A stretch of DNA of 64,000 nt from a bacterium (GTDB lineage Bacteria > SZUA-182 > DTGQ01). The stretch spans positions 1 to 64,000 of the forward strand of contig JAILZY010000002.1 in the NCBI GenBank assembly GCA_023512255.1, read 5' to 3'. Shown here piece by piece: positions 4,201-58,046 of this stretch. The stretch's first letter is position 1. Each line of letters starts with the position of its first letter. The position numbers and the translations under genes are program-made. A model generated the notes under the pieces. That model was not told where the DNA came from. It did not search any database and saw nothing but the letters and a program-made list of their open reading frames with translations.

Positions 4201-4253
4201 AGATAAACAGTCAGAAACAAAAATCAAAGTTTAGGTTTTAAAGGATCTTTCCG

Positions 4254-5249
4254 ATGAACATTCGGGATGGAGTATTAAATATCAATAAACCCCAAGGGAT
4301 CACCTCTTTTGATGTGGTGGCCAAAGTAAAAAAGGTAACCAGGGTGAAAAAGGTTGGACACGCCGGCACCCTCGATCCTGAGGCTAGCGGTGTTCTCCTC
4401 ATCTGCCTGGGCAAGGCCACCAGGATTGTCCCCTTTTTGATGGACGCCACCAAGGAATATCGGGCAACCCTTCATCTTGGAATCACCACCGATACCCTAG
4501 ACTCAACCGGCAAGATCATGCAGCGAACGGAGAAAATTACCACCACCGAGGAAGAGATCAGGGAGGCTGTCAGCTCTTTCACTGGTGAGATCGAGCAGAT
4601 TCCGCCCATGTTCTCAGCCCTATGGCATCATGGTAGACGGCTGTATGAGCTGGCTAGGGAAGGAGTTGAGGTCGAGCGAAAACCAAGAAAGATTACCATC
4701 CATCGTCTGACTATTCTAAGCTATGATCCGCCCTATCTAACCTTTGAGGTTACCTGCTCCAAGGGGACCTACATTAGGAGTCTTTGCGCTGATATCGGAC
4801 AAAAACTCGGGGTCGGAGGACATATGAGCTGGCTGCAACGGCTCAAGATAGGTGATATGAGCATCGAGCAGGCCATCCCCTTTGAAGTACTCGGTCAGAA
4901 AGGTGCGGCTGAAATCTTGGCGGCCAAAATCACCCCAGCGGACAGAGTGCTAAAATTTCTGCCTGCGGTCCAAATTAGGTCTTGGGCGAAGCGAGCGGCC
5001 CTGCACGGAGTGCCTCTTTCAGACCGCCAGGTGATCCTAGATCACCCTGAGCAGCTCCGCAAAGGGGATCTGGTCAGGGGGTATGATTCAGAGGGCCAAT
5101 TTATTGGCATTTTCGAGACTCTGGTTGATCTGAGTGGACTCAGGCAGCAGCAGCCACAGGCTGAGCCGCCGCAGGATGGACGGCTACAGGCTGAGCCGCC
5201 GCAAACCAGCCAAGAGGAGCTATGGTTTAAGCCGAAGCGGCTACTGTAG
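4254..5249 (+). CDS. truB: tRNA pseudouridine(55) synthase
   Basis: TruB isomerises U55 in the T-loop of most tRNAs. The 331-aa product has the catalytic motif GHAGTLDPEASGVL with the nucleophile Asp at about residue 41. It also has the N-terminal LNINKPQGITSFD, the YRA..HLGITTDTLD segment, the KGTYIRSLCADIGQKLG motif and a C-terminal PUA-like domain (from about residue 245). ATG 4254 follows AAAGGAT at a good distance. The last ~35 residues carry a duplicated QAEPPQ low-complexity tail that is unusual for the family. The common infB-rbfA-truB context is missing. Confidence 0.92.
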   Translation: MNIRDGVLNINKPQGITSFDVVAKVKKVTRVKKVGHAGTLDPEASGVLLICLGKATRIVPFLMDATKEYRATLHLGITTDTLDSTGKIMQRTEKITTTEEEIREAVSSFTGEIEQIPPMFSALWHHGRRLYELAREGVEVERKPRKITIHRLTILSYDPPYLTFEVTCSKGTYIRSLCADIGQKLGVGGHMSWLQRLKIGDMSIEQAIPFEVLGQKGAAEILAAKITPADRVLKFLPAVQIRSWAKRAALHGVPLSDRQVILDHPEQLRKGDLVRGYDSEGQFIGIFETLVDLSGLRQQQPQAEPPQDGRLQAEPPQTSQEELWFKPKRLL

Positions 5250-5383
5250 GCCTTTGGTCTCAGCCTGAAAAGGCCATATGAAAGGGCCATAAATTATAAC
5301 CTTCCCTTATAACTTGGGCATAATAATATTAATAATATTATAAATAATATAATACTATAAATAATAATAGCATATAATTAAGA

Positions 5384-6184
5384 ATGGGAACCCCTATGAC
5401 TACCAGAAAGTTGAAACTGGCTAATATTCAGTTTGGAGTCGTGCCCGGAAAGATTGATCAAAACCGCAGCCTGGCAGAAAGACTGATACGGGCGGCTGCT
5501 GGCTGCGGGGCTAAGATTCTCTGCCTGCCTGAGCTTTTCACCACTGGCCATGACTTCAATCTAATCCGCAGTACGCACGACAAAGAGGCCAAATGCTCTG
5601 AAACCCTTGACTGGCTCGGTGGACTTGCCCGCTCCCTAAACATTTACCTAGCTGCCGGAACCTTGCCGGAAAAAGAGGGGGAGAAATTTTACAATACCAC
5701 CTTTTTCTTCAGCAGTGAGGGAGAGCTTTTAGGGAAGTATCGTAAGGTGCACCTTTTCCCCCAGATGGGTGAGGATAGCTTTTTTACCCCTGGCCAGGGC
5801 TATCCGCTCTTTCATACTCCTTTAGCCAGGATAGGGATTGCTGTCTGCTATGATCTTCGCTTCCCTGGCCAGTTTGCCGATCTTGCTGCTCAAGGGGCAG
5901 AGATTATCCTGGTTCCAGCCCGCTTTCCTCATCCGCGGCTTGATCACTGGCGGATTCTCATTCGGGCCAGGGCGATAGAAAATTACCTGTTTGTAGCTGG
6001 ATGTAACGCTAGCGGCACCTTCGATCATACCCTATTCTGCGGCCACTCCTGCATCATCTCTCCTTGGGGTGAGACCGTGGCCGAGGCAGGAGAGCGGGAA
6101 GATGTGCTTGTGGCCGAAATCGACCTTGATCTGGTTGAGGAAAGCCGCTCTTTCTTCCGGCAGCCTGCGGGAAGTAAGGCTTAG
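5384..6184 (+). CDS. Carbon-nitrogen hydrolase (nitrilase/omega-amidase superfamily)
   Basis: The 266-aa protein has the nitrilase-superfamily catalytic triad in order: Glu50 in CLPELF, Lys121 in YRKVHLF and Cys155 in VCYDLRFP. The family cleaves amides or nitriles of small carbon-nitrogen compounds in the cytoplasm. The motifs resemble branches that include omega-amidases and N-carbamoyl hydrolases, but the substrate cannot be set from sequence. The C-terminus stops at FFRQPAGSKA, shorter than relatives that continue with a conserved R-x-x-L-Y tail. ATG 5396 (MTTRKLK) is an alternative start with a weak GGGA upstream. An extremely A+T-rich tract at 5316-5380 precedes the gene and may hold its promoter. 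Confidence 0.82.
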   Translation: MGTPMTTRKLKLANIQFGVVPGKIDQNRSLAERLIRAAAGCGAKILCLPELFTTGHDFNLIRSTHDKEAKCSETLDWLGGLARSLNIYLAAGTLPEKEGEKFYNTTFFFSSEGELLGKYRKVHLFPQMGEDSFFTPGQGYPLFHTPLARIGIAVCYDLRFPGQFADLAAQGAEIILVPARFPHPRLDHWRILIRARAIENYLFVAGCNASGTFDHTLFCGHSCIISPWGETVAEAGEREDVLVAEIDLDLVEESRSFFRQPAGSKA

Positions 6185-6316
6185 GGGCTTTTGTAAGTGC
6201 GTAACACAAGGTAGGGATTGGTTTTAAACCTCCCCCTACGTCTAGGTTCGGCCCTTATGCCGCGGCAGCTTGCACACTTTATTCTTGCGCACTTTATTAG
6301 CGAAAAGACCGCTTAG
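6182..6316. repeat. GCGCACTTTATTAGCGAAAA family, full copy
   Basis: The left end reads GGCTTTTGTAAGTGCGTAACACAAG (shown here in two blocks: GGCTTTTGTAAGTGCG and TAACACAAG). The right end reads GCGCACTTTATTAGCGAAAA then GACCGCTTAGGGG. The two ends are imperfect inverted repeats. Inside, GTAGGG and CCCTAC (6211-6239) form a hairpin that could also terminate the amidase transcript. The rest of 6185-6500 holds the promoter described next. Confidence 0.55.
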
Positions 6317-6373
6317 GGGATGATTTAGATTAGGGGATGATTACTAATTAGGCTAGAAAAAACAATAAAAATC

Positions 6374-6401
6374 TTGACAAGCCAAAATAAGTTGTTATAA
6401 G
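6374..6401 (+). promoter_or_regulatory. Sigma-70-type promoter for the HU/IHF gene
   Basis: A consensus -35 TTGACA (6374-6379) is followed after 16 bases by TATAAG (6396-6401), about 100 bases before the start codon. Confidence 0.6.
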
Positions 6402-6500
6402 TTATAATAGTTTTCTGTCAGTAGGTTTTTATTTTTTATATCTCTAATAAAATATCTCTCTATTATTCAAATTCTACGCCCTCAAGGAGGAAACACCCGG

Positions 6501-6773
6501 ATGACCAAAGAAGATATTATTAAAAATGTCTGGGCTGAGCTCAATATCAGTAATAAGCAAGCGAGAGATGCGGTTGAGGCTGTCTTTAATACCTTGAAAA
6601 ACGTTCTGGCCAAAGGAGACCAGGTTGAAATCCGCGGATTTGGTAAGTTCATCATCCGGGAGAAAAATACCCGAATCGGAAGAAATCCCCGGACAGGTGA
6701 AGAAGCGAAAATCACCGCCCGAAGGGTAGTTACCTTCAAGCCGTCGAAAATTTTCAGAAATACGGTTAATTAA
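6501..6773 (+). CDS. HU/IHF-family DNA-binding protein
   Basis: This 90-residue nucleoid protein binds and bends DNA as a dimer. It has the family pattern of two N-terminal helices (residues 1-40), then GFGKFIIREKNTRIGRNPRTG, the beta-arm with the intercalating proline in RNPRTGE, and VVTFKPSKIFR at the end. The last segment and RRVVTF lean toward the IHF-alpha side of the family, but HU cannot be excluded. A strong AAGGAGG lies 11 bases before ATG 6501. It is monocistronic, with its own promoter. Such proteins assist IHF-dependent sigma-54 promoters, which is of note because three -24/-12 motifs occur in this window. Confidence 0.9.
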   Translation: MTKEDIIKNVWAELNISNKQARDAVEAVFNTLKNVLAKGDQVEIRGFGKFIIREKNTRIGRNPRTGEEAKITARRVVTFKPSKIFRNTVN

Positions 6774-7117
6774 CCCTCAATATGTGGTAAAATTAACAGT
6801 ATTTGAAGCTTGTCTGAAAAAGGGAAAAGTGCAAAAATAAGGTTCCCTTCTTCCGGCATTCCAAGCCAGATGCGCTGATCCGGTCAAAAAAGAGGGATGT
6901 CCGCTGTGGGTCTCAAAGGGGGTAGTTTTATCCTAAAAAAGATATGATTTATCCCTTGAGATAACTTGCTCAAGGCAGACTCATTTGCAAGATATTCATA
7001 CCCTCTTTCTATACTAATTAGTATACGCGGATACTATATGCGGACATTGTATATATTATATTTCTATTTATATATAATTGTATATATTATATATATTTGC
7101 ATATATACGGAAGTGAG
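6774..7117. other. Non-coding spacer, extremely A+T-rich at its right end
   Basis: There is no reading frame, RNA gene or known element. Bases 7060-7110 are nearly pure A and T with repeated ATATATT units just ahead of the metalloprotease gene. They are likely to melt or bend easily and to contain its promoter. Confidence 0.4.
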
Positions 7118-9544
7118 ATGAAAGATGCTGCCTGTGAAATAAAAATCAAGGCTGCCTTGCTTAAGATTTTCCTGGCTGGCCTATGGTGCTCCTTTTGGGT
7201 CTTTTCCCCAGGGCAGAAAGCGGCTATTGCAGCTCACTCTCCTCCCTCAGAGTTTGCCGAGCGATTAAATCAGGAGATTTCTAGCCTATTCCGCCCCCCC
7301 TCTCAAGAAGTCCAGCGCTCTTTTTCCCCTCTTGCCCCTTTGCCCATCAGGAGAAAATGTGCCACCCCCCTAATACGCCAGGCCTTGCGGCATCCAGAAT
7401 TGTTGACTCCAGAAAACCGATTTATCCTCCACCGCCCGACAGACCTGGGCGATCCTATGGAGCGCTATGAGTATAATGGTGATTATTACTATGGAAGGGA
7501 TGTTAGTATATGGAGTTATGACACCGATCATTTTCGCCTCTACTACACAGAAGATAATCGCTATGGAGATGCAGTTGAGGGCTCGGACGGAAAGCAGATG
7601 ACTATCCCTGCCTTTGTAGTCGATTTTGCCCAATATTTTGAAGAATCATGGAACTATCTTACAGAAACACTTAGCTACCAACCACCTAGCCAGAAAACCG
7701 AGGTCTTTATCCTCAATATCGCGGCTTACGGAATCACCAGTGCCGATGATCGGGGGGCTTATATTTTAGTCAGTAACGATTACCAATGGGACAGAGAAAA
7801 CCTGGACAGTGAAGGGAAAAAGGCCGGAGCCATGAAGGTTACGGCAGTGCATGAATTCTTTCATGTAGTCCAAGCGGGCTATGATCAGTGGCCGACATCA
7901 CCGGTAGATAACATGTGGTGGGAGGAAAATACCGCAGTCTGGATTGAAGATGAACTCTATGACGAGGTTGATGACTATTTGAATTACCTGGGCTGGCCTT
8001 TTGGGGACAGCAATGATAATGGCCGATGGAATAGCGGAGAGCCGTACTTCAATATTTTGAATCTAGCCTTATCTGATGGGCGGCAGAGGTGGGGGACGGC
8101 GCTTTATTATAGAAGGGATTATGGATGGTTTGACTATCCTTATATCTGCCTGACCAAGACCAGCCGTGATCTCTTCTTTGACTACGAATATGGCGGGGTT
8201 ATCTGGGCTAAATTTCTCTCCGAAACCTTTGGAAGCAAGATTATCCTGACCATATTTGAGCAGATTCAGCCTCCCTCATATGATATCCTGGCTGCTATCG
8301 ACCGGGCAATAGGGGAATTCAGCGGCGGGAGGACCTCTTTTGATCAGGCATTTATCCTCTTTAAGCTGACTAACTTACAGCAGAATTACGAGGAGGGAAT
8401 CAGCTATCCGATCCCCTGGCATAAATATGACCTCTCGATAGAATCCGAATCCTCGATAACGGATAATCTTGACTGTCTGAGCTGTCAGTATCTGATCTGC
8501 AGAAAGCCCGCCTCAGGATCAGCTATCCGCCTTCGGATCGATGGCTCGATCCAGGCTAATCTTGCTGTTTTGGCCACTCCGGCTAGCTCGTATAGCTCCC
8601 TGCCGCAATCAAGACCAGGATTTGGCACTGCCCAGCTTATCAACCTCGATGGGAATCAGCATGGCACCTATGATTTTTCTTTCAGCGAAGGCTCTGATTA
8701 CTCAAAGCTGATCATTATTCCCATCAACCTTTCTCAGTACAATGAAGCCTGGTATACCATTCAGGCTGAGGAGCTGCCCAGCGGGAATTTGCCCCCTGCG
8801 CCCCTGATTGCCGAAGGCTCCCCCACTACCGGCACCAAGGATGGCTATCTTGTGATTCGGCTTGGCTGGGAGCCGGTCAGGGAAGGAGGCCGATACCAGA
8901 TCTGGCGAGGTCGCAAGGGGAAATATCAGAGCTTGATCTTCCAGTCTCCTGAGATTGCCTACCCTTCTTCTACTTACCAGGACAGCAATGTCTATGAAGA
9001 TATTGATCCTACCTTAGATGGAGAGGAAACTTACCTCTATCAGGTAAAATTTGTTACTGATAGCGGGACCTCCTCATCGGAAATTGCCCAGGTTACGACC
9101 CCAAAATTGCCCATCTCCCAGGTCCAGGTCCGGTATAAGAGGAGCCCTGCTCCTTGTGTTGAAATCTCCTTTCAGGTTGATCCCAACATCATCACCTATT
9201 ATCAGATCGAGCGAAAAATCAAGGGAATATCTTCTGCTTTTGATACTGTATTAAGCAAAACTTCATTAAGCAAAACTTCGGGAGAATACTCTGATCAAAC
9301 CATTATTACCCATAGCGATTATCAGATCAAGCTCAATACAGCCTATCTCTACCTCATTACTGCCTATAATGCTCAAGATAATTATTTTCGAAGAGAAATT
9401 TCGATCAGGACACCAGCCGAAGTTCCCATGATGGCACATCCTCCCTCCTCTTCGCAAAATGATCGCAGCGGATGCTTTATTGCTAGCCTAGAGAGATTTT
9501 CCCTTGCAGGAGATTTTCCGGTTGTGGTAGAATCAGTTTTATAA
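7118..9544 (+). CDS. Secreted HExxH metalloprotease-like protein with fibronectin-III-like C-terminal region
   Basis: The 808-aa protein starts with a signal peptide (hydrophobic run ALLKIFLAGLWCSFWVF, cleavage near AIAA). A zinc-protease motif HEFFH lies at residues 245-249 in the context VTAVHEFFHVVQAGYD, followed by WWEENTAVWIEDELYD, where a third ligand glutamate may lie. This pattern resembles the MXAN_6640-type putative metalloproteases. From about residue 560 on there are two beta-rich modules that read like fibronectin type III repeats (PPAPLIAEGS, W.PV..GGRYQIWRG, YLYQVKFV). Near the end is SGCFIAS, a remnant-like version of the GCFIATAAYG motif of many exported proteins. ATG 7118 follows GGAAGTGAG; TTG 7097 is less likely. 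Probably extracellular or surface-attached. The substrate is unknown. Confidence 0.7.
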   Translation: MKDAACEIKIKAALLKIFLAGLWCSFWVFSPGQKAAIAAHSPPSEFAERLNQEISSLFRPPSQEVQRSFSPLAPLPIRRKCATPLIRQALRHPELLTPENRFILHRPTDLGDPMERYEYNGDYYYGRDVSIWSYDTDHFRLYYTEDNRYGDAVEGSDGKQMTIPAFVVDFAQYFEESWNYLTETLSYQPPSQKTEVFILNIAAYGITSADDRGAYILVSNDYQWDRENLDSEGKKAGAMKVTAVHEFFHVVQAGYDQWPTSPVDNMWWEENTAVWIEDELYDEVDDYLNYLGWPFGDSNDNGRWNSGEPYFNILNLALSDGRQRWGTALYYRRDYGWFDYPYICLTKTSRDLFFDYEYGGVIWAKFLSETFGSKIILTIFEQIQPPSYDILAAIDRAIGEFSGGRTSFDQAFILFKLTNLQQNYEEGISYPIPWHKYDLSIESESSITDNLDCLSCQYLICRKPASGSAIRLRIDGSIQANLAVLATPASSYSSLPQSRPGFGTAQLINLDGNQHGTYDFSFSEGSDYSKLIIIPINLSQYNEAWYTIQAEELPSGNLPPAPLIAEGSPTTGTKDGYLVIRLGWEPVREGGRYQIWRGRKGKYQSLIFQSPEIAYPSSTYQDSNVYEDIDPTLDGEETYLYQVKFVTDSGTSSSEIAQVTTPKLPISQVQVRYKRSPAPCVEISFQVDPNIITYYQIERKIKGISSAFDTVLSKTSLSKTSGEYSDQTIITHSDYQIKLNTAYLYLITAYNAQDNYFRREISIRTPAEVPMMAHPPSSSQNDRSGCFIASLERFSLAGDFPVVVESVL

Positions 9545-25377: not shown

Positions 25378-25393
25378 TGCAACATCTATGCCA
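25378..25393 (-). promoter_or_regulatory. Sigma-54 (-24/-12) promoter for the surface-layer-like gene
   Basis: On the minus strand TGGCATAGATGTTGCA has GG and GC exactly ten bases apart, as the sigma-54 consensus requires. It lies about 280 bases before the start codon, leaving room for a long leader and an activator site upstream. A similar motif precedes the 50571 gene. Confidence 0.6.
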
Positions 25394-25742
25394 CCCCATC
25401 ATAGATAAGCAAACCGCTTTTTTTGTAAGGCTTTTTCACTGGCAAACCTCTCACTTTAGCCTTACTGATAAATAAACCTTTCCTTATCGCAGGATCAAAT
25501 CTCTTAATTTTTGAAGAAAAATATATGAAAATACTTTCATATATTCTAAATGCCACCTTTGGCATTGGCTTATTTAACAAGACATTATCTAAAAATGAAA
25601 TTGAATACATAACTATGAATCCAATTGCATACTCTAATGAGGCATATCCTCTCTTGCTATCAGAGAAAAAATTATTTATATTACTGAAGACAACACTGCG
25701 GATAAAGTTTATCATCTTTTTCATCTTTATTTGGCGCATCAA
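25386..25742 (-). CDS. Hypothetical protein, doubtful
   Basis: This is an open frame of 118 codons; a start at the MKKMINF methionine (25727) is possible. The product is basic and hydrophobic in the middle (SLEYAIGFIVMYSISFLDNVLL) and ends KVRGLPVKKPYKKSGLLIYDG. I do not recognise it. It diverges from comEC and its stop overlaps the sigma-54 motif. It might be a degenerate gene end or non-coding A+T-rich sequence. Confidence 0.3.
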   Translation of the reverse strand: MMRQIKMKKMINFIRSVVFSNINNFFSDSKRGYASLEYAIGFIVMYSISFLDNVLLNKPMPKVAFRIYESIFIYFSSKIKRFDPAIRKGLFISKAKVRGLPVKKPYKKSGLLIYDGVA

Positions 25743-31989: not shown

Positions 31990-32452
31990 ATTAGATGAGG
32001 ACATAAAAAATAAGATATGAAAAAAATTTTATGTTCCTGCCCTATACCTTAAAATTCTTACCTTGACAATGCAAACAAGGGGACTAACTAAGCAAAATTT
32101 TTCACACTGATTCTTTTTTTCACCTATCCTCATCTTCTCTGGCTAAAGGACCTTTTTCAATCCTGCCCCAAATCAAAAAATTATCAATATAACATATTGA
32201 AAAATATAATAAATTTGTTGCTGCTGCCCTTTAAAATCTCTCATGGAATCAAAAAAATTTTCGCCTCATCTGCCGCCCTAAAAACAAAGGTGGCAATTAT
32301 ATTGCATATTTTCTCTCTTCGGAGAGCTAAGTGCATTTTTATGGAGGACATTGAGAGATCAAACTTGCGAATTATAAAATTTGAGTTATAATGAGGATAA
32401 TTTTTAAATCTTGCAATAGCTCAAATAATTAATCAGGATGGTTAATGGTGAA

Positions 32453-45431: not shown

Positions 45432-46370
45432 ATGATCACTGTAACTAATCTTACCAAGAGATATGGTCCAACTCTAGCTGTTGACAATATCTCTTTTGAG
45501 GTCAAAAAGGGAGAAATCCTCGGATTTCTAGGGCCGAATGGAGCCGGGAAAAGCACCACGATGAGGATTCTGACCTGTTACATGCCTCCTGATGAAGGCA
45601 AGGCCACGGTGGATGGACTAGATACTATTGAGGATTCACTCAAAGTGCGTGAAAAAATCGGCTACCTTCCAGAAAACACCCCTCTGTACTACGATATGTG
45701 GGTTATTGATTACCTAAAATTCGTGGCTGAAATTCGCAAAATTCCCCCGGCTAAGATAAAAGCCCGTATTCGGGAAATAGCTCATCTGTGCGGGCTAGAC
45801 AAGGAACTTAGCAAGAGTATTGGACAGCTGTCCAAAGGATATCGGCAGAGGGTAGGATTGGCTCAAACCCTAATTCATAACCCTGATGTCCTTATCCTTG
45901 ATGAGCCGACCACTGGCCTTGACCCTAACCAGATTATCGAGATCCGAAGTCTGATCAAGGAGATCGGCCGAGAGAAAACCGTTATCCTCTGCTCCCATAT
46001 ACTACCCGAGGTGCAGGCTACCTGCAATCGAATCATTATCATTAAAGATGGTAAGATCGTCGGCAGCGGAACGCCAGAAGAGCTTGCTGCTCAGGCTCAA
46101 GGAGGAGAAGAGATCGTCTACATAACCATTAATGGGCCACAGGATAAGATTCAGGAGCAGTTGAATGCCCTAGAGGGTGTCCAAAGCTGCTGCCTTCTGG
46201 GTTCAGAAAATGGGAGTTATCGGTTTGAGGTCAAAAGCAAGCAGGGAGTGGATGTCCGAGAAGCCCTGTTTAGGCTTGTCGTAGCCAATAATTGGTCACT
46301 GACCGAATTGATGAGAACCCACATTACTCTGGAAGATGTCTTTAAACAACTTACCACTGAGGAAAATTAG
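45432..46370 (+). CDS. ABC transporter ATP-binding protein (GldA-like)
   Basis: The 312-aa ATPase has Walker A GPNGAGKS (residues 34-41), signature LSKGYRQRVGLAQ, Walker B VLILDEPTTGLDP and the H-loop ILCSHIL. A C-terminal extension is typical of ABC-2 exporters. The order ATPase, short ABC-2 permease, GldG-like protein and DUF4340 protein is the widespread Gld-type cluster, which in Bacteroidetes takes part in gliding. Elsewhere the exported substrate is unknown. Two bases separate it from the permease gene. Confidence 0.92.
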   Translation: MITVTNLTKRYGPTLAVDNISFEVKKGEILGFLGPNGAGKSTTMRILTCYMPPDEGKATVDGLDTIEDSLKVREKIGYLPENTPLYYDMWVIDYLKFVAEIRKIPPAKIKARIREIAHLCGLDKELSKSIGQLSKGYRQRVGLAQTLIHNPDVLILDEPTTGLDPNQIIEIRSLIKEIGREKTVILCSHILPEVQATCNRIIIIKDGKIVGSGTPEELAAQAQGGEEIVYITINGPQDKIQEQLNALEGVQSCCLLGSENGSYRFEVKSKQGVDVREALFRLVVANNWSLTELMRTHITLEDVFKQLTTEEN

Positions 46371-46372
46371 CT

Positions 46373-47089
46373 ATGAGGAATATATTTGCCATCTTTAAAA
46401 AAGAATTTCGGAGTTACTTTAACTCTCCGATCGCTTATATCTTTATCACCGCTTTTCTGGTTTTCAGCGGCTGGCTTTTTTTCCGCGGCTTTTTCCTGAT
46501 TGGAGAGGCCACCATGAGACCCTTTTTCTCCATCCTCCCCTGGGAATTCCTCTTCTTTGTTCCGGCAGTAACCATGCGAATGTGGGCAGAGGAAAAAAAG
46601 CTTGGGACGATCGAGCTCCTCATGACCTTTCCACTCAACGACTATGAGATCGTTATCGGCAAATTTCTGGCCGCATTTCTCTTCCTAACGATTACCGTAC
46701 TGTTGACCTTCCCTTTCCCGCTGACTCTCTTTTACCTTAACAAGCCTGATATTGGACCAATTATCGGAGGATATTTGGGAGCACTTCTCATGGGAGCTGC
46801 CTACCTGTCAATCGGGCTTTTCATCTCCAGCCTGACTGAAAATCAGATCGTGGCCTTCATTGTCAGTATCTTTACCTGCTTTGCCCTGTTTATCATCGGC
46901 GAGCAGATTGTGCTCACCGCCCTGCCAAGCTGGCTGGCTCCAATATTTAGTTTCCTTGGCTTGGGGTACCATTTTGAGAGTATTGGACGGGGAGTGATCG
47001 ACTCTCGCGATCTTATCTATTATATTTCAGTCATTATCTTTTTCTTATTCCTTAACATTCGATCCGTCGAAAGCCGGAAATGGAGATAA
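46373..47089 (+). CDS. ABC-2 type permease (GldF-like)
   Basis: The 238-aa integral membrane protein has six predicted helices and begins IFAIFKKEFRSYFNSPIAYIFI. The motif MRMWAEEKKLGTIELLMTFPL is the family hallmark. It is the membrane half of the transporter with the preceding ATPase. Its stop lies at 47087-47089, next to the GldG-like start. Confidence 0.92.
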   Translation: MRNIFAIFKKEFRSYFNSPIAYIFITAFLVFSGWLFFRGFFLIGEATMRPFFSILPWEFLFFVPAVTMRMWAEEKKLGTIELLMTFPLNDYEIVIGKFLAAFLFLTITVLLTFPFPLTLFYLNKPDIGPIIGGYLGALLMGAAYLSIGLFISSLTENQIVAFIVSIFTCFALFIIGEQIVLTALPSWLAPIFSFLGLGYHFESIGRGVIDSRDLIYYISVIIFFLFLNIRSVESRKWR

Positions 47090-47103
47090 AACTGGAGAAA
47101 ACT

Positions 47104-48711
47104 ATGGGATTAAGAAAAGTAAAATACAGTAGCAATCTTTTTCTGACTATCCTTATTCTGCTGGGGATTTTAGGAACAATTAACTTTATCTCACACCGCC
47201 ACTTCATACGCTTCGATCTCACTTCCGAAAAGATGTACAGCATCTCAAAATCCACCCAGAATGCCCTGGCTAAACTGAACGACGTAGTTAACATCAAGGT
47301 GTATTTTTCCAAAGAATTGCCTCCGCAACTGGCTACCCTGAATAGCCAAGTGCGGGACATACTGGATGAATACAAGGCTTACAGCCACGGTAAGCTTTTG
47401 ATCGAATTCATTGATCCTGCCTCAGACCAAAGTCTTGAGCAGCGAATGAATTTCATCGGTATCCCGAAGGTCCAACTGAATGTTTTTCAGAAGGATCAGG
47501 CTCAACTGACCAATGTTTATCTTGGAATGATGATTCTCTACCAGGATAAAAAGGAAATCATTCCCGTAATTCAGGACACCAGAAACCTTGAGTACGATCT
47601 GACCAGTGCTATTATTCGGGTTACCCAGAAAGAGCCCAAAACCGTGGGTTTCTTAACCAGCATCCCAGAGCAAGATTTCAAGGACATGACCACGCGGGTC
47701 AGGGAGGATCTTGGCAAGCAGTATACGGTGAATATTCTGGATCTAAAGAAAGAGGAAAAAATCCCCAGCTCAGTCAATACCCTAATTGTCATGGCGCCAG
47801 AGGAAACTAGCGAGCGAGCTCAATACGAAATCGACCAATTTATTATGCGCGGGGGCAAAGCCATTTTCCTCCTGGATACGATAAAAATCGACAAAAAGAA
47901 CATGCTTCAGACCCAGCAGGTCAAGCACAACCTGGATGATATGCTGACCCACTACGGTGTTAAGGTCAACAACGATCTGGCCCTGGATCGCTACAGTGCT
48001 ACAGTAGGATTTAATCGTGGATTTTTCAGCTTCCGCATCCCCTATCCCTTCTGGCCAAAAGCAATCGCTCAGAACCTGGATCAGAAAAGCCCGATCGTCA
48101 ATAAGCTTGGCTCGATCACCTTCCCCTGGACCAGCTCCCTGGAGCTTCTGACTGGCAGGCTCAAAACCCTAGGGGCCGAAGGAACCGTTTTGGCCAAAAC
48201 CTCAACTCATGGTTGGACCACCAGTGGAAGCTATAACCTTGATCCTGGCCAAAGATTTGAGATGCCCTCTGAAATGAAAAGCATTCCCCTGGCAGTCCTG
48301 GTAAGCGGAAAATTTAAAAGCTTCTTTGAAAATAAGCCGGCTCCACCAAAGACAGCCGCGGCCACACCTGAGGAGATTCAGTCCCAGGCCCAGGAGTCTC
48401 CGATCAAGGAAAGCCCCCTGACCCATATTCTGGTCGTAGGCAACTCCCGTATGATTACCGATGGTTTTTATCAGCCGGGCGAGAATGCGAGCTTCTTTCT
48501 AAACAGCGTTGACTGGCTGACCATGGGCGATGCTCTCATTGGGATTCGCTCCCGTGAAAATACCGAGCATCCCTTGAAACCCACCGAGCCCCATCAGCGG
48601 ACCACCATCAGGTATATCAACATCTTCGGGGTTTCGATAATGCTCATTATCTTTGGATTAGCCAGAGCCTGGCTGAACAATAAACGAAAAACCGCATGGC
48701 TCGATAACTAA
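47104..48711 (+). CDS. GldG-like auxiliary component of the ABC transporter
   Basis: The 535-aa protein has an N-terminal transmembrane helix (FLTILILLGILGTINFI), then a large extracytoplasmic domain beginning RFDLTSEKMYSISKSTQNALAKL and containing VKVYFSKELPPQL-type and FIDPASD motifs. A C-terminal helix (YINIFGVSIMLIIFGLARAW) completes the GldG family plan. ATG 47104, with CTGGAG seven bases before it, is preferred over ATG 47080, which overlaps the permease end. It probably forms the external part of the exporter. Confidence 0.88.
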   Translation: MGLRKVKYSSNLFLTILILLGILGTINFISHRHFIRFDLTSEKMYSISKSTQNALAKLNDVVNIKVYFSKELPPQLATLNSQVRDILDEYKAYSHGKLLIEFIDPASDQSLEQRMNFIGIPKVQLNVFQKDQAQLTNVYLGMMILYQDKKEIIPVIQDTRNLEYDLTSAIIRVTQKEPKTVGFLTSIPEQDFKDMTTRVREDLGKQYTVNILDLKKEEKIPSSVNTLIVMAPEETSERAQYEIDQFIMRGGKAIFLLDTIKIDKKNMLQTQQVKHNLDDMLTHYGVKVNNDLALDRYSATVGFNRGFFSFRIPYPFWPKAIAQNLDQKSPIVNKLGSITFPWTSSLELLTGRLKTLGAEGTVLAKTSTHGWTTSGSYNLDPGQRFEMPSEMKSIPLAVLVSGKFKSFFENKPAPPKTAAATPEEIQSQAQESPIKESPLTHILVVGNSRMITDGFYQPGENASFFLNSVDWLTMGDALIGIRSRENTEHPLKPTEPHQRTTIRYINIFGVSIMLIIFGLARAWLNNKRKTAWLDN

Positions 48712-48730
48712 GTTTGAAGGAGATGAGAGC

Positions 48731-49915
48731 ATGAAATTCAAAAAAACCCTGATTCTTTTTGTCGTTTTGGTTTTTTTACTTCTCATTGCCTATCTGCTGG
48801 AACGCCCCCGAGGAACAATCCAGCCATTGAGCCTGTTCCCCGATTTTACCATTGATGCGGCCAGTCTGATCCATATCCACAATCGAGGCAACAAGGATGA
48901 GGCCCCGGTTACTCTGGTCAAGAGCGGCCAGGATTGGAAGATCGAGAATGAGCAGGGATTTCCGGCTGATTCTGAACTGGTTAAAAAAGCCTTAGAATCC
49001 ATATCAGAGCTAAAGAAAGCGAATAATGTAGTCTCCAAAAACCCTGAAAATCAAAAACTCTATGAGGTCGATCCCAATCAGGGTATCGAGGTCAAGGTTA
49101 GCGACGCAAAAAAGAAGAATTTGGCTAATTTTTTCGTCGGCAAGACAGGCCCGGACTTTATGAGCACCTACATCCGCAAGGCTGACTCCAATGAGGTCCT
49201 GCTGTGTGAAGGGTATCATCTACGGTCGGCTTTCAGTCGCACGGCGAAAAACTGGTACGATCTGAATATCTGTAAATTTACTCCAGAGGAAATCACCAAG
49301 ATCGAAATCGCCGAGGCGGGAAGAAAACTGACCCTGAAAAAGGATAAGGAAAATTGGCAACTTACCGACCCCAATCAGCAGCAGGCACAGGCTAAAAAGA
49401 ATCTGGCCGACGATATGGCCAATACCCTGTCTCGGCTTCGGGCCATTGATCTTCTCCGGGCAGAGCCGGATAAATTTGCCGAATATCAACTGAATCCGCC
49501 AGCCCGCCAGCTTACTGTCTTTCTGACCGATGGGACAGACAAAAAGATCAGCATCGGCAAGAAGAACGACCAGAACCAGTACTATGTAAAAGCGGAAAAA
49601 GATGTTATTTACCTGGTTGCCCAATACCATGTCGATCGGCTAAATAAAAGTTTCGAAGAGCTGAAAGAGCCACCCCCTCAGGCAGATCCGAACAGTGCCA
49701 AACAGCCGACAGCGGAAAATCCTGCGGCGACAGGAGAAGGGGAAACTTCAGACGCTGAAGGGAAACCGCAAGATGGATCCGCCGCAAGCACTACAGCGGC
49801 CAGCACAGGATCAGTCGCTGGGCAGGCCTCCTTCGGCGCTGGGCAGCCTACCGCGGCTAAGACACCACCTGCTGTAGCTGCACCACAGGCTCCGGAGAAG
49901 GAGAAGGCCAAATAG
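48731..49915 (+). CDS. DUF4340-domain protein
   Basis: The 394-aa protein has an N-terminal transmembrane helix (TLILFVVLVFLLLIAYLL) and DUF4340 repeats marked by PVTLVKSGQDWKIENEQGFPAD and LTLKKDKENWQLTDPNQQQA. About 70 Ala/Pro/Gly/Gln-rich residues at the end look disordered. DUF4340 proteins regularly end GldA-F-G clusters and are thought to be its periplasmic partner. GAAGGAGATGAGAG precedes ATG 48731. Confidence 0.88.
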   Translation: MKFKKTLILFVVLVFLLLIAYLLERPRGTIQPLSLFPDFTIDAASLIHIHNRGNKDEAPVTLVKSGQDWKIENEQGFPADSELVKKALESISELKKANNVVSKNPENQKLYEVDPNQGIEVKVSDAKKKNLANFFVGKTGPDFMSTYIRKADSNEVLLCEGYHLRSAFSRTAKNWYDLNICKFTPEEITKIEIAEAGRKLTLKKDKENWQLTDPNQQQAQAKKNLADDMANTLSRLRAIDLLRAEPDKFAEYQLNPPARQLTVFLTDGTDKKISIGKKNDQNQYYVKAEKDVIYLVAQYHVDRLNKSFEELKEPPPQADPNSAKQPTAENPAATGEGETSDAEGKPQDGSAASTTAASTGSVAGQASFGAGQPTAAKTPPAVAAPQAPEKEKAK

Positions 49916-50008: not shown

Positions 50009-50461
50009 AAAAATTTATGCTAAAGTTGTGCAGGTGTATGCGCCTCCCCCAGCCCTACCCGCACAGGAAAAGAGCCATCAGGGAGAAAACCCTGGGCCCG
50101 GACCACTCCTGCGGCCCTACCTCCTGAGGAAAAGCGCCGCGTGGTGCACGCCCCGCATGGTGATACGCCCTGCATGGTGATACGGCGATGATGATCCCTA
50201 ATGGCCTTGTTACCCCCTGAAAGGGAAAGCCCCTCAAAGGACAGGAGATGAGGTTATAGTGAAGAAGGCAATAAGCCTGATGATGATAAGGAGGCCGAAG
50301 ATATTGCACCAAGTTGCATAAATATGCAAAGTTTTTCATATCCTCTTATTACTAAAAGTGAATAAATGAGTGAATAAATGTTTTTAAGACCTTAGGGTAA
50401 AGTAAGATTTTAAGATAAAGGTATATAATCCCCGGTTAGAAAAAGATATATATACCCAGCT
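50009..50461. other. G+C-rich, hairpin-rich non-coding stretch of unknown role
   Basis: Bases 50030-50230 are much richer in G+C than the flanks. They hold CAGGG-AGAAAA-CCCTG and a direct repeat GCATGGTGATACG (50155-50167, 50172-50184). No tRNA fold or riboswitch I know (c-di-GMP-I, cobalamin, TPP) fits. It may encode a structured RNA. The right part is A+T-rich. Confidence 0.3.
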
Positions 50462-50479
50462 TTGGCACTGAAATTGCAA
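50462..50479 (+). promoter_or_regulatory. Sigma-54 (-24/-12) promoter for the low-complexity secreted proteins
   Basis: TTGGCACTGAAATTGCAA matches the sigma-54 consensus: TGGCAC at -24, TTGC at -12, with GG and GC exactly ten bases apart. Transcription would begin near 50489, about 80 bases before the start codon. Confidence 0.8.
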
Positions 50480-50570
50480 AGTTAATAGTATGTTGATTTT
50501 TATCATGATGTTGGCTAGGAAAGCGTTCATAAATAACAGAGTAGAATCTTAAGAAGAGGTTAGAAATAGC

Positions 50571-51929
50571 ATGAGGTTAGGGGAGAAGTTATTCGGTATT
50601 TTTGTAGCTATTGTCGGGATTATTTTAGCGGGGTTTAGGATGACAGAGGTTGTAGATTTAGCGTATGCCAGCAGTGGGGCGAGGGAAATCGTGTCTATGA
50701 CTAAAACGGTCAGTGTGGCTAACTCTCCCCGGGTATATGATTCCATCGCTCTCAAGGTAAAAACTACGCAGCCATTCAAGGTTTGTGTGCAGGTCTATAC
50801 CTCGGAAGGCGAATATTGGATTACCTATTCGTCGACCTACAGTGGATCACCAAAATACGATCAGGAAACAGGTATGATTGAGGCCAGGCTGGGACAGTCT
50901 GTAGAGAATGGACAATGGAATACCATCGAATTGAATGTAAGCTTGACCCTGCAAGAGGAGGCCTTAATCAGTGGCCATGCTCCCTTTAGCCTGCGCAATA
51001 TCATGAAGATCAGCCTGCTCGGCAGCGACTTTGGGGTCCGCTACGTTAGCGTATTCTATACGGACAGCGATGGATCAAAGAAATACCAGCCTCTTGATAA
51101 GGATAGGTATGGAAGCGACAATTTCAGTCTACCAGATATTACCCCACCAAGCTACAAAAAAACCTGGCAAGGGTGGGAGTTAACCGATCCTGAGTATTTC
51201 ACCATCCAATATGATGAAAATCTAGTCAGTTATCTCCAGGCTCAAGGCCCTCTGAGTGAAAGCCACTCAGAAGGCTCTTCCAGTCAAAATCGGACCGGGG
51301 ATGCCGTTGTCTACTCTCCTACTGATCTGGGCAGCTCTTACTACTCTCCCTACTCAGCCCTGGGAGGATACTATGACAACTATTATGGGGCCTGGTACGG
51401 CGGCCTAGGGTATTATAACTATCTTGGTTATGGATTTCCATTCTTGTACGGCCCGTTTGGGCTTGGCTACGGCGGTCTCTTCGGCCTCGGCTACGGTCTT
51501 CTTGGCCTTGGAGGCTTATTTGGCTATGGGCTGGGTGGCTATTTCTATCCACCGCCACTATATGGGCTTGGCTACGGTCTTGGAGGGTTTGGTCTTCCCT
51601 ACTCAAGCTACGGCTATCCTTATTCCCTCTATGGCGGCTTCCTCAACTCTCCACTTGGGTTAGGCTTTTCTTCTCTGCTGGGAACAGAGCTTAGCAGCTC
51701 AGATCTATTGAGCAGCCTGTCGAGTCTGCCGACCAATACCATCTCGCTGCCGACTCTTGTCCCCTCGACCAGTCAGGTGAGTTTATCCTCAATCCTGGGG
51801 TTGAGCAATCTGGGAATATCGGGGCTATCCGATATTACCGTACCGATAACTACCTATACACCCGGATCGACCACGATCACCTTGCCAGATTTGTCAAGCC
51901 TCCTCTCTTCAACCACAAGTACAATTTAA
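50571..51929 (+). CDS. Secreted protein with a beta domain and a Gly/Tyr/Leu-rich low-complexity region
   Basis: The 452-aa protein has an N-terminal signal segment (LFGIFVAIVGIILAG). A beta-rich domain of about 150 residues contains LKVKTTQPFKVCVQVYT, ARLGQSVENGQWNTIELNV and MKISLLGSDFGVRYVSVFY. About 100 residues of Gly/Tyr/Leu/Phe repeats follow (residues 245-355, for example GLGYGLLGLGGLFGYGLGG), then a Ser/Thr/Leu-rich tail. No known family name comes to mind. The beta domain is shared with the next gene and with the 22795-25098 protein. The aromatic-glycine region resembles self-assembling structural or adhesive proteins. A sigma-54 promoter lies upstream. The next gene follows after 49 bases. 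Confidence 0.65.
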   Translation: MRLGEKLFGIFVAIVGIILAGFRMTEVVDLAYASSGAREIVSMTKTVSVANSPRVYDSIALKVKTTQPFKVCVQVYTSEGEYWITYSSTYSGSPKYDQETGMIEARLGQSVENGQWNTIELNVSLTLQEEALISGHAPFSLRNIMKISLLGSDFGVRYVSVFYTDSDGSKKYQPLDKDRYGSDNFSLPDITPPSYKKTWQGWELTDPEYFTIQYDENLVSYLQAQGPLSESHSEGSSSQNRTGDAVVYSPTDLGSSYYSPYSALGGYYDNYYGAWYGGLGYYNYLGYGFPFLYGPFGLGYGGLFGLGYGLLGLGGLFGYGLGGYFYPPPLYGLGYGLGGFGLPYSSYGYPYSLYGGFLNSPLGLGFSSLLGTELSSSDLLSSLSSLPTNTISLPTLVPSTSQVSLSSILGLSNLGISGLSDITVPITTYTPGSTTITLPDLSSLLSSTTSTI

Positions 51930-51978
51930 AAGGTACGAGAAAAGATAAGAGACCAGAGAAGGGGCGGGAGAGAAGGAG

Positions 51979-53199
51979 ATGAAAGAGAAAAACGGGCGGT
52001 GGTTAGTAGGGTTATTGGGCCAGTTATGGCGGTGGTTATTGCTCGCCCTAATAGTAGTGGCCATAGGGTGGGGGACCACCAGGGCAGCGGGAGCAGCCGA
52101 GTCTTCCCCAAAGTCAGTCTATATCTTCAAGGAGCTAGAAGGCAGAGCCTATCGACAAGAGAATATTCGGCTTTCGATCAAGAGCCAGGATTCGCTGATC
52201 ATTTCCCTGCGCCTTGGGACAAGCAAAGGAACAAGCCGCTGGGTAAATTTTACTACCAGCGCGGGCTCACCCTCATATCAGGCCGATTTGATCGAAATTC
52301 CTCTTGGCCGCTCTATTACCGATGGAGCCTGGCATGAGGTTGAGCTTCTCGACCTTGGGGGAATCCTTGCCCGAGGTGGAGATACCTATAACCATATCGA
52401 GAAGATCGGTATCCGAGGAACAGCTTTCCAGCTGGGGAAGATAGAGTTCTTTTCAGGGGATGCCAATGCTCCTATCAGCGTTCAGGTTATGAGCTTTGAC
52501 CATCCTGAGATCTCGAACATGAATCAGTATGGCTGGTACTCGAATGACAGCAGTATAGAGGCTACCCTCCATTATCCGCCGGAAGGTGGCTATCTTGAGG
52601 TTAAGGGGAAAACATCGGCCCTGTCTCAGCAAACAACTCAAAAGCAGCAGGGTGGACAAAAGGAGGCGACAGCCTCTTCTTTCAGCCAGCTCTCTGCCAG
52701 CCAAAGCTGGTATTTCCCCTTCTCAGCCCCATCGAGCTATCCCTTTTTCTCTGATTGGACCGCAGGACCTGTCTATCCGCCCTATATACCTCCACTGCGG
52801 CCTTTTCCGCCGCTCTTTGGGCTTGGCTATCCACCAGGGACAGCGCCCTATGGCTTTGGTCCTCAGCCTGTACTCTCTTTACTGACTCTGGCTGGACTGC
52901 CGGCATACTTCAGCGATCCCAATCCGGGTTATCCCTACTCGGCAGGGGGGTATAACTTTGCCACTCTTTTTGCTACCGGCAGCAGCCCTTATCCCTTTGC
53001 CAGCCCCTTCCCTGCCCAGACTTACAGCTACCTAGCTCCTCCTCTTGCTCCGTTTGATCCGACATATAATATCTATACCTCAACCGTCACTTCTACCCTT
53101 GCTCCCACAGCTACCCTCTCCGGGCTCCTGACCGCCATCAGCATTGGTGGCGGTGGAGGAGGTGGCGGCCCAGGCTTTGCCGGCGGAGCTTTAATCTAG
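51979..53199 (+). CDS. Secreted protein with the same beta domain and a Pro/Tyr/Phe/Gly-rich region
   Basis: The 406-aa protein has a signal peptide (LLGQLWRWLLLALIVVAIGW, cleavage near AAGAAE). Its beta domain has LSIKSQDSLIISLRLGTS, IPLGRSITDGAWHEVELLD and KIGIRGTAFQLGKIEFFSG, collinear with the domain of the preceding gene. From about residue 235 the sequence is rich in Pro, Tyr, Phe, Gly and Ser (YPPYIPPLRPFPPLFGLGYP) and it ends with eight glycines and FAGGALI. It is almost certainly co-transcribed with 50571-51929. An extracellular structural role is inferred. GAGAGAAGGAG precedes ATG 51979. Confidence 0.65.
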   Translation: MKEKNGRWLVGLLGQLWRWLLLALIVVAIGWGTTRAAGAAESSPKSVYIFKELEGRAYRQENIRLSIKSQDSLIISLRLGTSKGTSRWVNFTTSAGSPSYQADLIEIPLGRSITDGAWHEVELLDLGGILARGGDTYNHIEKIGIRGTAFQLGKIEFFSGDANAPISVQVMSFDHPEISNMNQYGWYSNDSSIEATLHYPPEGGYLEVKGKTSALSQQTTQKQQGGQKEATASSFSQLSASQSWYFPFSAPSSYPFFSDWTAGPVYPPYIPPLRPFPPLFGLGYPPGTAPYGFGPQPVLSLLTLAGLPAYFSDPNPGYPYSAGGYNFATLFATGSSPYPFASPFPAQTYSYLAPPLAPFDPTYNIYTSTVTSTLAPTATLSGLLTAISIGGGGGGGGPGFAGGALI

Positions 53200-54953: not shown

Positions 54954-56543
54954 TCATACGCCTAATATCTGCTCGGCTTCCTGCCTATAGGCATCCATAA
55001 CGTAGGGAATACCAGAGATTTTAGCTGCCTCTTCGGTGAGAGCCATAAGATCATTTCTGGAGATAGTGCTGAGACTAAAGTTTCTGCTACCGGCCATAAG
55101 CTGCTGCAATCCTACCTTAATCTTCTGAGCGAAGCTGTAGATGCCGATAGCTCCAAGAGGCATATTCTTTATTTCATTCCCATATTTTTCAGCTAGCTCT
55201 GCATAGCAGACAAAAATTTCCTCAGGCGTAGTACCAAATTCAGAAACAGTCTTAGGCAGGTCATTGTTCTTGATCCACTCGCCAATGTTTTTCCCAACCA
55301 TGCCGGGAATCATTAGTGCTCTTCCCATGCAGACCGCCTTGACATAGGGAGCGCCCATAGCCAAAACCTTAAAGACATGATCCTCGGTTGAGAATCCGCC
55401 AGCGATGGCTATACTGGGTATCTGCATCCCCTTTTGAGCCAGCTTCTGACAGAATTCATAGGTCAGGGACTGGAGGTAGAAGGTTGGGATGCCCCACTCC
55501 TGCATCATTCGCCAGGGGCTCATGCCTGTTCCGCCAGGGGCGCCATCAATAGTCAGTAGGTCGATCTTGGCCATTGAGGAATATTTGATAGCCATAGCCA
55601 GCTCGCGCATCGAGTAAGCGCCAGTCTTCAGGGTAATACGCTTGAAGCCAATTTTTCTGAGCCGCTCGACCTCAGCCAAAAAGCCCTCTTCAGAGACAAA
55701 TCCCAGACGAGAGTGTCGCTCGAATTCTTTAATCGCTCCTGCCTTGAAGGCCTGTTGAATAGCTTTGTTCGAAGGATCCGGAGTAACGATGTATCCTCGC
55801 TTTTGCAGCTCAAGGGCTCTTTCCAGGGACTTAACCTTGATCTCGCCGCCAATACATTTTGCTCCCTGTCCCCATTTTAATTCTATGGTCTCAAGATTAT
55901 GCTTTTTCTGAACATACTCGGCCACTCCAAGCCGCGTATCTTCCACATTCATCTGGACCAGAATTTCGCCAAACCCTTCATGGTATCTCTTATAGATCTC
56001 GATTCGCCGATCCATATCAGGGGCCTTGACGACCTTGCGGTTAGCATCCAGTTCCAGTTGAGGATCGATCCCACAGACATTTTCTCCGCACACTAGGGTA
56101 ATCCCGGAAATAGCTGCTCCAACGGCAAAATGCTCCCAGTTCTTGCGGGCAATCTCTGTGGAACCCAAAGCGCCGGTAAAGATTGGTACCTTCATCCGTA
56201 CCTTGATGTCCCAACCATATTCCGTCTCTGTGTTAACCGCTGGGAAGATGGCCGTATCAGGATTTGCCTCCGTACCCTCAGGCAGCCCTTTGGCACCCAT
56301 AGCATATCCCTGGATGTTTAGGTGGGAGTAGTCAACAGGGTAATTCTTGTCAGCACCTGCTGAAATCTCACCAAAGGGGCCAGGATAGATGACTTCCCGA
56401 CTGCGGAAAGAGGCCTTGAAAACCTCGCAGTTCCCTCGGCATCCATCAATACAGCGAGAACAGAGCCCTGAGCAGGGCACAACACTTTTCGAGCGATTAA
56501 AGGTTCTGGTGGCGTCGTTTGAATTTGGTTGTTGTAAGTTCAT
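54954..56543 (-). CDS. gltB: FMN-binding glutamate synthase large-subunit-like protein (archaeal-type GltB)
   Basis: The 529-aa protein corresponds to the FMN/synthase domain of glutamate synthase without the N-terminal glutaminase. An N-terminal cysteine cluster (C24, C28, C31, C35, C39) may bind an iron-sulfur centre. Core motifs are VPIFTGALGSTEIARKNWEHF, VCGENVCGI, GQGAKCIGGEIK, LLTIDGAPGGTGMSPWRMM and IAIAGGFSTEDHVFKVLAMGA (each in part). It would convert 2-oxoglutarate plus glutamine-derived nitrogen to glutamate, with glutaminase and electron donor supplied by other subunits not in the window. AAGGAGAGGGAG precedes ATG 56543. Candidate operators lie in its promoter. Confidence 0.88.
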   Translation of the reverse strand: MNLQQPNSNDATRTFNRSKSVVPCSGLCSRCIDGCRGNCEVFKASFRSREVIYPGPFGEISAGADKNYPVDYSHLNIQGYAMGAKGLPEGTEANPDTAIFPAVNTETEYGWDIKVRMKVPIFTGALGSTEIARKNWEHFAVGAAISGITLVCGENVCGIDPQLELDANRKVVKAPDMDRRIEIYKRYHEGFGEILVQMNVEDTRLGVAEYVQKKHNLETIELKWGQGAKCIGGEIKVKSLERALELQKRGYIVTPDPSNKAIQQAFKAGAIKEFERHSRLGFVSEEGFLAEVERLRKIGFKRITLKTGAYSMRELAMAIKYSSMAKIDLLTIDGAPGGTGMSPWRMMQEWGIPTFYLQSLTYEFCQKLAQKGMQIPSIAIAGGFSTEDHVFKVLAMGAPYVKAVCMGRALMIPGMVGKNIGEWIKNNDLPKTVSEFGTTPEEIFVCYAELAEKYGNEIKNMPLGAIGIYSFAQKIKVGLQQLMAGSRNFSLSTISRNDLMALTEEAAKISGIPYVMDAYRQEAEQILGV

Positions 56544-57017: not shown

Positions 57018-58046
57018 ATGGAAATAAAAACTGATAAAAATATCATTGCCATCCTGCGGGCATTGCGGGAAGCCCCAAGACCTTTGGGCGGAACCAGAGT
57101 GGCCAGGCAGATTCAATCGTATGGTATAAACCTCTCTCCCAGGGCGGTTAGATATTATCTTGCCCTGACTGATAAGGCTGGATTTACTAAGAACTTGGGC
57201 AACAAGCGCGGCCGGATCATCACCCCTGAGGGCAGAAAAGAATTGAACAGCGCTTTTGTAATGAGTAAAATCGGTCTGATCGCTTCCATGATCGATGAGC
57301 TGTCCTATAAGATGGACTTCTCCCTGGCCAAACTAAAGGGGAATATCGTATTAAACATTTCAACCATCCAGGCGGAAAACTTCCCGAAAGCCCTGGCTTA
57401 TATTCTCCCAGTATTTCACAAAGGGTTCGGCATGGGGCAATTTGCGGTGATCAGAGAGGGAGGCAGCCAACTTGGAAATTTTTCCATTCCTCATGGCTCA
57501 ATAGCCATCGGTACCCTGTGTAGTGTTACTATCAATGGCGTATTTCTCAAGGCTGGGATTCCGGTTTTTTCCCGATTCGGAGGATTGCTGGAAATCAAAA
57601 ATGGCCAGCCAGTCAGATTTACCGATATTATCGCCTATAATGGATCTACCCTCGATCCCTTGGAAATCTTCATCAAGGGACAGATGACCAGTGTGTATCA
57701 GGCGGCGAGGCTTGGATGCGGTCTGATCGGAGCCAGCTTTCGCGAGATTCCCGCGGCCGCTATCCCGCAAGCCGAGAGGATTAAAAAGAAGCTGATTAAG
57801 ACCGGGCTTGGCGGGATCCTGATGATTGGAAGGCCTGGCCAGGCCCTGCTCGACATACCTGTCCCAGAAGGAAAGGCAGCCATGATCGTGGTCGGAGGAC
57901 TAAATCCGCTTGCCGCCTGTGAGGAAAACGGGATTAAAACCCATAACCTGGCCATGGGAACACTTTTTGATTTCAAAGAGCTATTACCCACAAGCCACCT
58001 TGAGCAGCTCCTCGGCAAAGAACAGCAGAGCGAGAGAGAAAATTAA
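57018..58046 (+). CDS. NrpR-family nitrogen regulator (winged helix plus one DUF128 domain)
   Basis: The 342-aa protein has an N-terminal winged-helix domain (ILRALREAPRPLGGTRVARQIQSYGINLSPRAVRYYL, read in parts; residues 8-75) and one NrpR regulatory domain (about 85-325: PVFHKGFGMGQFAVIREGG, GTLCSVTINGVFLKAGIPVFSRFGGLLEI, GLGGILMIGRPGQALLDIPVPEGKAAMIVVGGLNP, each in part). In methanogens NrpR represses nitrogen genes and is released by 2-oxoglutarate. Here it diverges from gltB-glnA, which supports the same role. An LhgO-like oxidase gene follows. GTGAGG precedes ATG 57018. Confidence 0.88.
   Translation: MEIKTDKNIIAILRALREAPRPLGGTRVARQIQSYGINLSPRAVRYYLALTDKAGFTKNLGNKRGRIITPEGRKELNSAFVMSKIGLIASMIDELSYKMDFSLAKLKGNIVLNISTIQAENFPKALAYILPVFHKGFGMGQFAVIREGGSQLGNFSIPHGSIAIGTLCSVTINGVFLKAGIPVFSRFGGLLEIKNGQPVRFTDIIAYNGSTLDPLEIFIKGQMTSVYQAARLGCGLIGASFREIPAAAIPQAERIKKKLIKTGLGGILMIGRPGQALLDIPVPEGKAAMIVVGGLNPLAACEENGIKTHNLAMGTLFDFKELLPTSHLEQLLGKEQQSEREN

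Follow-up and report, generated by a model that had tools for sequence, protein, structure and literature searches.

The question raised by this locus is how a pair of adjacent genes behind a sigma-54 promoter is controlled, and what its two secreted products are for. The pair, P1 and P2, lies in a stretch of 64,000 nucleotides (64 kb, hereafter the window) of the source genome (G000), which was compared with genomes of the same genus (G001), the same family (G002) and the same order (G004), and with a further related genome (G003). The first-pass annotation of the window had described a near-consensus −24/−12 promoter followed by two exported proteins, each combining a beta domain with a low-complexity part, and this description was confirmed. 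The features of the locus are collected in Table 1.

Table 1. Positions of the P1-P2 unit, its neighbours and the second regulon gene within the window
Feature	Position	Strand	Remarks
Second regulon gene, secreted protein of about 774 aa	22795..25116	-	FEYW...GW jelly-roll/PKD family; own exact UAS and box
Predicted sigma-54 promoter of the 22795-25116 gene, TGGCATAGATGTTGC	25379..25393	-	PSSM score 16.5
UAS of the 22795-25116 gene, ATATGAAAATACTTTCATAT	25523..25542		0 mismatches
Gld-type ABC transporter genes and DUF4340 gene	45432..49915	+	directly upstream of P1 in G000, G002 and G004
UAS of P1-P2, 20-bp palindrome ATATGCAAAGTTTTTCATAT	50322..50341		exact match to ATATGMAA-N4-TTKCATAT
Sigma-54 (−24/−12) promoter of P1-P2, TGGCACTGAAATTGC	50463..50477	+	exact consensus; kept in G001 and G002
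Predicted transcription start	50489	+	12 nt 3' of the GC in the −12 box; 82-nt leader
P1, secreted protein of 452 aa	50571..51929	+	signal peptide about 1-34, jelly-roll about 36-190, Gly/Tyr/Leu-rich uncharged tail 246-452
P2, secreted protein of 406 aa	51979..53199	+	signal peptide about 1-39, jelly-roll about 41-170, Pro/aromatic-rich tail 246-406, poly-Gly end
glnA, neighbour of P1-P2	53350-54705	-	convergent with P1-P2

The two genes are adjacent on the same strand, separated by 49 bp, and each product carries an N-terminal hydrophobic stretch followed by A-x-A, with no further membrane segment; the rule used for calling signal peptides was a crude one. Together with another protein, Q (encoded in G000 on contig C69 and in G001 on contig C78), P1 and P2 form a set of paralogues, of which the N-terminal regions align with an invariant W, an invariant G and an invariant 'GW' pair. 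Export signals, homology, structural models and tail composition all agree with the original description of exported proteins made of a beta domain and a low-complexity part. Judged by their sequences, P1 and P2 are diverged copies of one architecture, consisting of a signal peptide, a beta domain of about 130 residues and an almost uncharged tail. Neither protein matched any family of Pfam or NCBIfam, the match of P1 to DUF903 (E 0.097) being below the cut-off and therefore rejected, and P1 gave no match among plasmid records.

The promoter box TGGCACTGAAATTGC is the sole exact match to TGGCAC-N5-TTGC within the window. Throughout the genome this exact form was found at 23 sites against 0/1 in the reversed control, and TGGCAY-N5-TTGC at 74 sites against 2 in the reversed control, 58 of the 74 being intergenic. 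RpoN is encoded in the genome (PF04552, 203.6 bits), together with about 25 full-length enhancer-binding proteins (about 25 strong PF00158 matches). The box upstream of P1 is kept in the same-genus (TGGCACTGGAATTGC) and same-family (TGGCATTATGATTGC) genomes; in the order-level relative no box was clearly recognisable upstream of P1 (best score 2.1), and a search upstream of paralogue Q, of the same architecture, found none in either G000 or G001. From the box spacing the transcription start was predicted at the very nucleotide given by the first-pass annotation. With a correctly spaced GG...GC box, RpoN and AAA+ activators in the genome, and an upstream enhancer site, the P1-P2 unit has the predicted features of a sigma-54-dependent operon.

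Nitrogen control through NtrC, suggested by the adjoining glnA, was considered and rejected: glnA is convergent, no box precedes it in the window, and in G002 the neighbour of P2 is a different gene. Near glnA, a glutamate-synthase-like gene (54954-56543, minus strand) and an NrpR-like nitrogen regulator (57018-58046, plus strand) were recognised by eye. Elsewhere, exact sigma-54 boxes stand before glnB-amtB and before a second glnA (loci L034 and L038), and classical nitrogen control appears to coexist with the surface regulon described below.

From look-alike inverted repeats upstream of several boxes we derived an enhancer motif, ATATGMAA-N4-TTKCATAT (hereafter UAS). The UAS of P1 sits 141 bp upstream of its −24/−12 box and recurs before P1 in G001 (one mismatch) and G002 (two mismatches). 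Allowing up to two mismatches, 9 of the 58 intergenic boxes had the motif within the preceding 300 bp, compared with 0.1% in dinucleotide shuffles; it had been built from some of the sites later counted, and after removal of the three exact founders the count was 6/55 (binomial p about 3e-11). At the same tolerance 48 sites were found genome-wide against 4 in reversed controls, some of them in tandem, 21 bp apart, and the distance from UAS to box ranged from 80 to 270 bp across units. The only two TGGCAY boxes of the window, those of P1 and of the 22795-25116 gene, are each preceded by an exact palindrome. Among the relatives, 14 UAS-plus-box units were identified, and the motif definition used none of their sites except the P1 leaders. 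At up to one mismatch, all seven UAS sites of G001 have a box of score at least 13, against a background of 0.5% per 290 nt; in G002 a strong box was present at just 4 of 10 such sites. Two related proposals were discarded. A 16-bp palindrome, TTGCATNNNNATGCAA, is unique in the genome in its exact form, and the overlapping 20-bp motif took its place as the enhancer; helical phasing of the P1 enhancer was given up, since its distance from the box differs between G000 and G001 by 58 bp, a non-integer number of turns.

The genes behind these paired elements are mostly of one kind. The source genome holds 19 UAS-plus-box units, 17 of them with an open reading frame, and 15 of these 17 products look secreted by a simple rule, compared with 40 of 124 in the background (p 1e-5). 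Among open reading frames of at least 130 aa located 3' of intergenic boxes, glycine and tyrosine together reached at least 20% in 8/50 against 0/124 in the background (p 3e-5), which consisted of 124 frames in 187 kb of other stretches. The regulon of G000 includes proteins with GLYGG repeats, Tyr/Pro-rich proteins and proteins of jelly-roll type; the product of the 22795-25116 gene shows a weak PKD match and has a counterpart with UAS and box in G002 (L265). The same pair of elements precedes GLYGG-type genes in G001, G002 and G004, another Tyr-rich family in G001 to G003, and a polysaccharide-export gene in G001. In five related genomes altogether, UAS and sigma-54 box stand before many genes for secreted proteins that are Gly/Tyr/Pro-rich or carry a jelly-roll. 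One further case in the window, a UAS with two mismatches and a box at 32015-32307 before a CDP-alcohol phosphatidyltransferase-like frame, was set aside as probably due to chance, the box being without the TGGCAY consensus.

Several other genes with sigma-54 boxes were recorded. A secreted protein of 326 aa composed mostly of SYGYSPYGAS-type repeats, with 51% glycine plus tyrosine (L058, G000:C157:36000-42981, at 2286-3266 on the minus strand), has a box 442 bp upstream. A family of secreted proteins of 540-790 aa, which begins with a jelly-roll marked by FEYWDSPLNHGW and continues with bacterial Ig/PKD domains (L062, 5109-6722, plus strand; L067, 5341-6951, minus strand), keeps its box between G000 and G003. 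A GGDEF-like protein gene was also found with a UAS of two mismatches and a box (L095, G000:C45, box at 20978), and a link to c-di-GMP is possible.

As to the protein that reads the enhancer, the recurrent non-secreted member of the UAS-plus-box set is an activator of 349 aa encoded on contig C114 of G000. It consists of AAA+ and Fis HTH domains only, with the motif GSYTGA and no sensor domain, and its domain layout resembles that of PspF, with a score (273 bits) below the cut-off of the PspF model (TIGR02974, 443.55 bits). The homologues in G001 and G002 are 94% and 83% identical, respectively, and the gene has UAS and box in all three genomes. Because this activator gene would thus stand under its own enhancer, the C114 protein is the natural candidate for the UAS reader, and it is probably an autoregulated activator. 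Alternatively, the enhancer may be read by another activator, such as a paralogue encoded on contig C58 next to a receiver-like/PilZ protein, or by a response regulator, with a signal chain possibly linked to c-di-GMP. The genome offers about 25 full-length activators to choose from, and the C58 paralogue is 68% identical to the C114 protein and adjoins both the PilZ protein and a pair of Gly/Tyr-rich genes that have a sigma-54 box; its own box, however, is without a UAS within two mismatches, in contrast to the UAS and box of C114 in three genomes, and we regard this alternative as unlikely, if a serious contender. The C58 locus itself (L057, G000:C58:8000-18000) contains, at 4253-8704 on the minus strand, the paralogue with its own box, the receiver-like PilZ (c-di-GMP) protein and the two Gly/Tyr-rich secreted genes; a subtilase gene adjoins this group, and the arrangement suggests a c-di-GMP-linked branch.

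The nature of the products was approached through their heads and tails separately. Homology and models support the beta domains at residues about 36-190 of P1 and about 41-170 of P2. Structure prediction and a profile search of these domains had been proposed earlier as checks; the prediction gave a jelly-roll for both, and the proteins stayed unrecognised, with no match of the head profile to PDB by sequence and none in Pfam and NCBIfam. The AlphaFold models were built on alignments of three sequences and have a mean pLDDT of 64 and 67 (about 80 in the core) and a pTM of 0.67-0.68; each predicts a beta sandwich that contains a single main helix. Searched separately, they gave the same top folds in the same order, namely the beta-sandwich domain of D-glucuronyl C5-epimerase (GLCE; Z 10.3-10.5), CFAP20 (Foldseek E about 1e-5, Z 8-9) and circularly permuted glucanases (Z about 8). 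According to the models, both heads are jelly-roll sandwiches of CFAP20/GLCE-type topology. For GLCE and CFAP20 (Z 8-10.5) sequence identity is just 10-18% and the context differs; the likeness is one of fold and says nothing of a common function or ligand. The head profile matched many larger secreted proteins in these related genomes, and gave matches in 3 distant genomes among the 290 searched.

The tails differ in composition and share a near absence of charge: that of P1 contains 19% Gly, 13% Tyr and 19% Leu with 2.9% charged residues, that of P2 19% Pro and 18% Tyr plus Phe with 2.5% charged residues. Both have the uncharged, Gly/Tyr/Pro-rich character taken here as the mark of low-complexity matrix proteins. 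Between two congeneric genomes, tail identity is 84-88%, and dN/dS is about 0.08-0.10 in the tails compared with 0.05-0.13 in the heads, values that are approximate as dS is near saturation. Since the tails are constrained to a similar degree as the beta domains, they are not loosely conserved despite their low complexity; on this estimate they are under strong purifying selection, and are not drifting filler. In the G002 homologue of P2 the tail is kept (56% identity) and the jelly-roll head is absent, and the head is therefore dispensable in G002.

These observations bear on whether P1 and P2 might be secreted carbohydrate-active or substrate-adhesion factors, that is, extracellular binding modules instead of structural matrix. 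The jelly-roll is common to carbohydrate-binding and glycoside hydrolase folds, and published work draws a parallel between CFAP20 and carbohydrate-binding modules (PMC6994238), yet no catalytic domain was found in P1 or P2, the fold reveals no ligand, and the conserved uncharged tails would need another role; we consider such a function improbable.

The operon with its promoter recurs in the same-genus and same-family genomes. Homologues of P1 are 80%, 43% and 28% identical in G001, G002 and G004, and those of P2 71% and 27% in G001 and G004, in addition to the tail-only match of G002; no homologues of either were found in four other genomes searched of the same class. A scan of genome contigs gave a sole match, DAOURK010000004.1 (CSMAG_150), which is G002. 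The G004 pair is spread over two contigs that share sequence within the P1 repeat, which gives this genome the same gene order, ABC-DUF4340-P1-P2. The position directly 3' of the ABC-DUF4340 genes, preserved across an order, would fit P1 and P2 as periplasmic or outer-membrane accessories of that Gld-type operon within a real regulon, for instance in export or envelope mechanics, but the G001 pair lies away from the ABC operon, this operon has no UAS-plus-box of its own in the window, and the tail composition and regulon partners are matrix-like, unlike transporter parts, making this reading quite improbable.

We therefore favour, with a probability of roughly 0.66, the reading that P1 and P2 share a transcript, have a structural role at the cell exterior and belong to a sigma-54 regulon mainly for secreted matrix-type proteins under the proposed circuit of C114 activator and UAS. 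The C114 activator would bind the palindromes 80-270 bp upstream of −24/−12 boxes, its own included, as their conserved co-occurrence suggests. It would then contact the RNA polymerase-sigma-54 complex by DNA looping, the established mechanism of sigma-54 activation, and transcription would start near 50489. P1 and P2 are predicted to leave the cytoplasm by their signal peptides; the jelly-roll heads may attach to a glycan or to another protein, and the uncharged tails may associate with each other and with other Gly/Tyr-rich regulon proteins, building up a coat, a sheath or the matrix of a biofilm. The first-pass annotation held that sigma-54 control calls for an enhancer-binding activator, and to this are now added a predicted enhancer motif, a candidate for the activator and a regulon. 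Its larger proposal of an undescribed extracellular matrix or adhesin system stands in part: no known family was matched and a matrix or adhesin is the best-supported reading, because most products of the regulon are secreted and either Gly/Tyr/Pro-rich or of jelly-roll type, with a polysaccharide-export gene included in the congener. The role itself is inferred from the export signals, the composition, the conservation and the genes that accompany P1 and P2 in the regulon.

More tentatively, and at somewhat less than even odds, the whole set may form a lineage-specific matrix, in which one autoregulated, sensor-less sigma-54 activator and a single enhancer code govern a large set of silk- or elastin-like Gly/Tyr/Pro-rich proteins and jelly-roll adaptors; if so, the matrix of an uncultured bacterium could be read straight from its genome. 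In any case, two unnamed proteins can now be placed in a predicted regulon, for which an enhancer is defined, an activator is put forward and targets are listed in five genomes. This conserved, nearly uncharged Gly/Tyr/Pro-rich bacterial family, for which Pfam and NCBIfam hold no model, is of interest for the biofilms of uncultured bacteria and for protein materials.

Among known systems, the closest in logic is the PEP-CTERM/exosortase regulon under PrsK-PrsR and RpoN, in which a 17-nt motif and a sigma-54 box precede scattered genes for secreted proteins and are read by PrsR (Haft 2006, PMC1569441); one member, pepA, depends on RpoN and plays a part in floc formation (PMC9850573). In both schemes the secreted-protein genes are many and unlinked, each has a long non-coding leader together with an activator site and a −24/−12 box, and there is a link to exopolysaccharide. 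The PEP-CTERM proteins differ in their C-terminal sorting signal, made up of a PEP motif, a hydrophobic helix and a basic end, which is absent from P1 (ending in LSSTTSTI) and P2 (ending in GFAGGALI). Their enhancer ends in TTTACA and lies about 63 bp from the box, unlike the palindrome and the wider spacing found here, and PrsR has a receiver whereas the C114 activator has none and scored 301.1 bits against the PrsR model (TIGR02915, cut-off 502.6). Since P1, P2 and the activator lack these defining features, the system is similar in logic and not a member, and would be a second sigma-54 scheme for secreted matrix proteins beside PEP-CTERM/PrsR. Brosi_A1236, an S-layer/matrix protein of anammox bacteria, is extracellular and likewise joins beta structure to a disordered, adhesive, condensing C-terminal part, a comparison by concept only (PMC7482068). 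Sigma-54 has been described as a controller of the cell exterior, acting on exopolysaccharide, flagella, lipopolysaccharide, lipoproteins and cell-wall precursors (Francke 2011, PMC3162934). Glycine-rich proteins are not mentioned in that survey, whereas the present analysis defines a specific enhancer together with a regulon whose proteins are secreted and of low complexity. P1 and P2 would belong to a set of surface-protein genes, not recognised before, whose members share this enhancer, sigma-54 and, probably, one dedicated activator.
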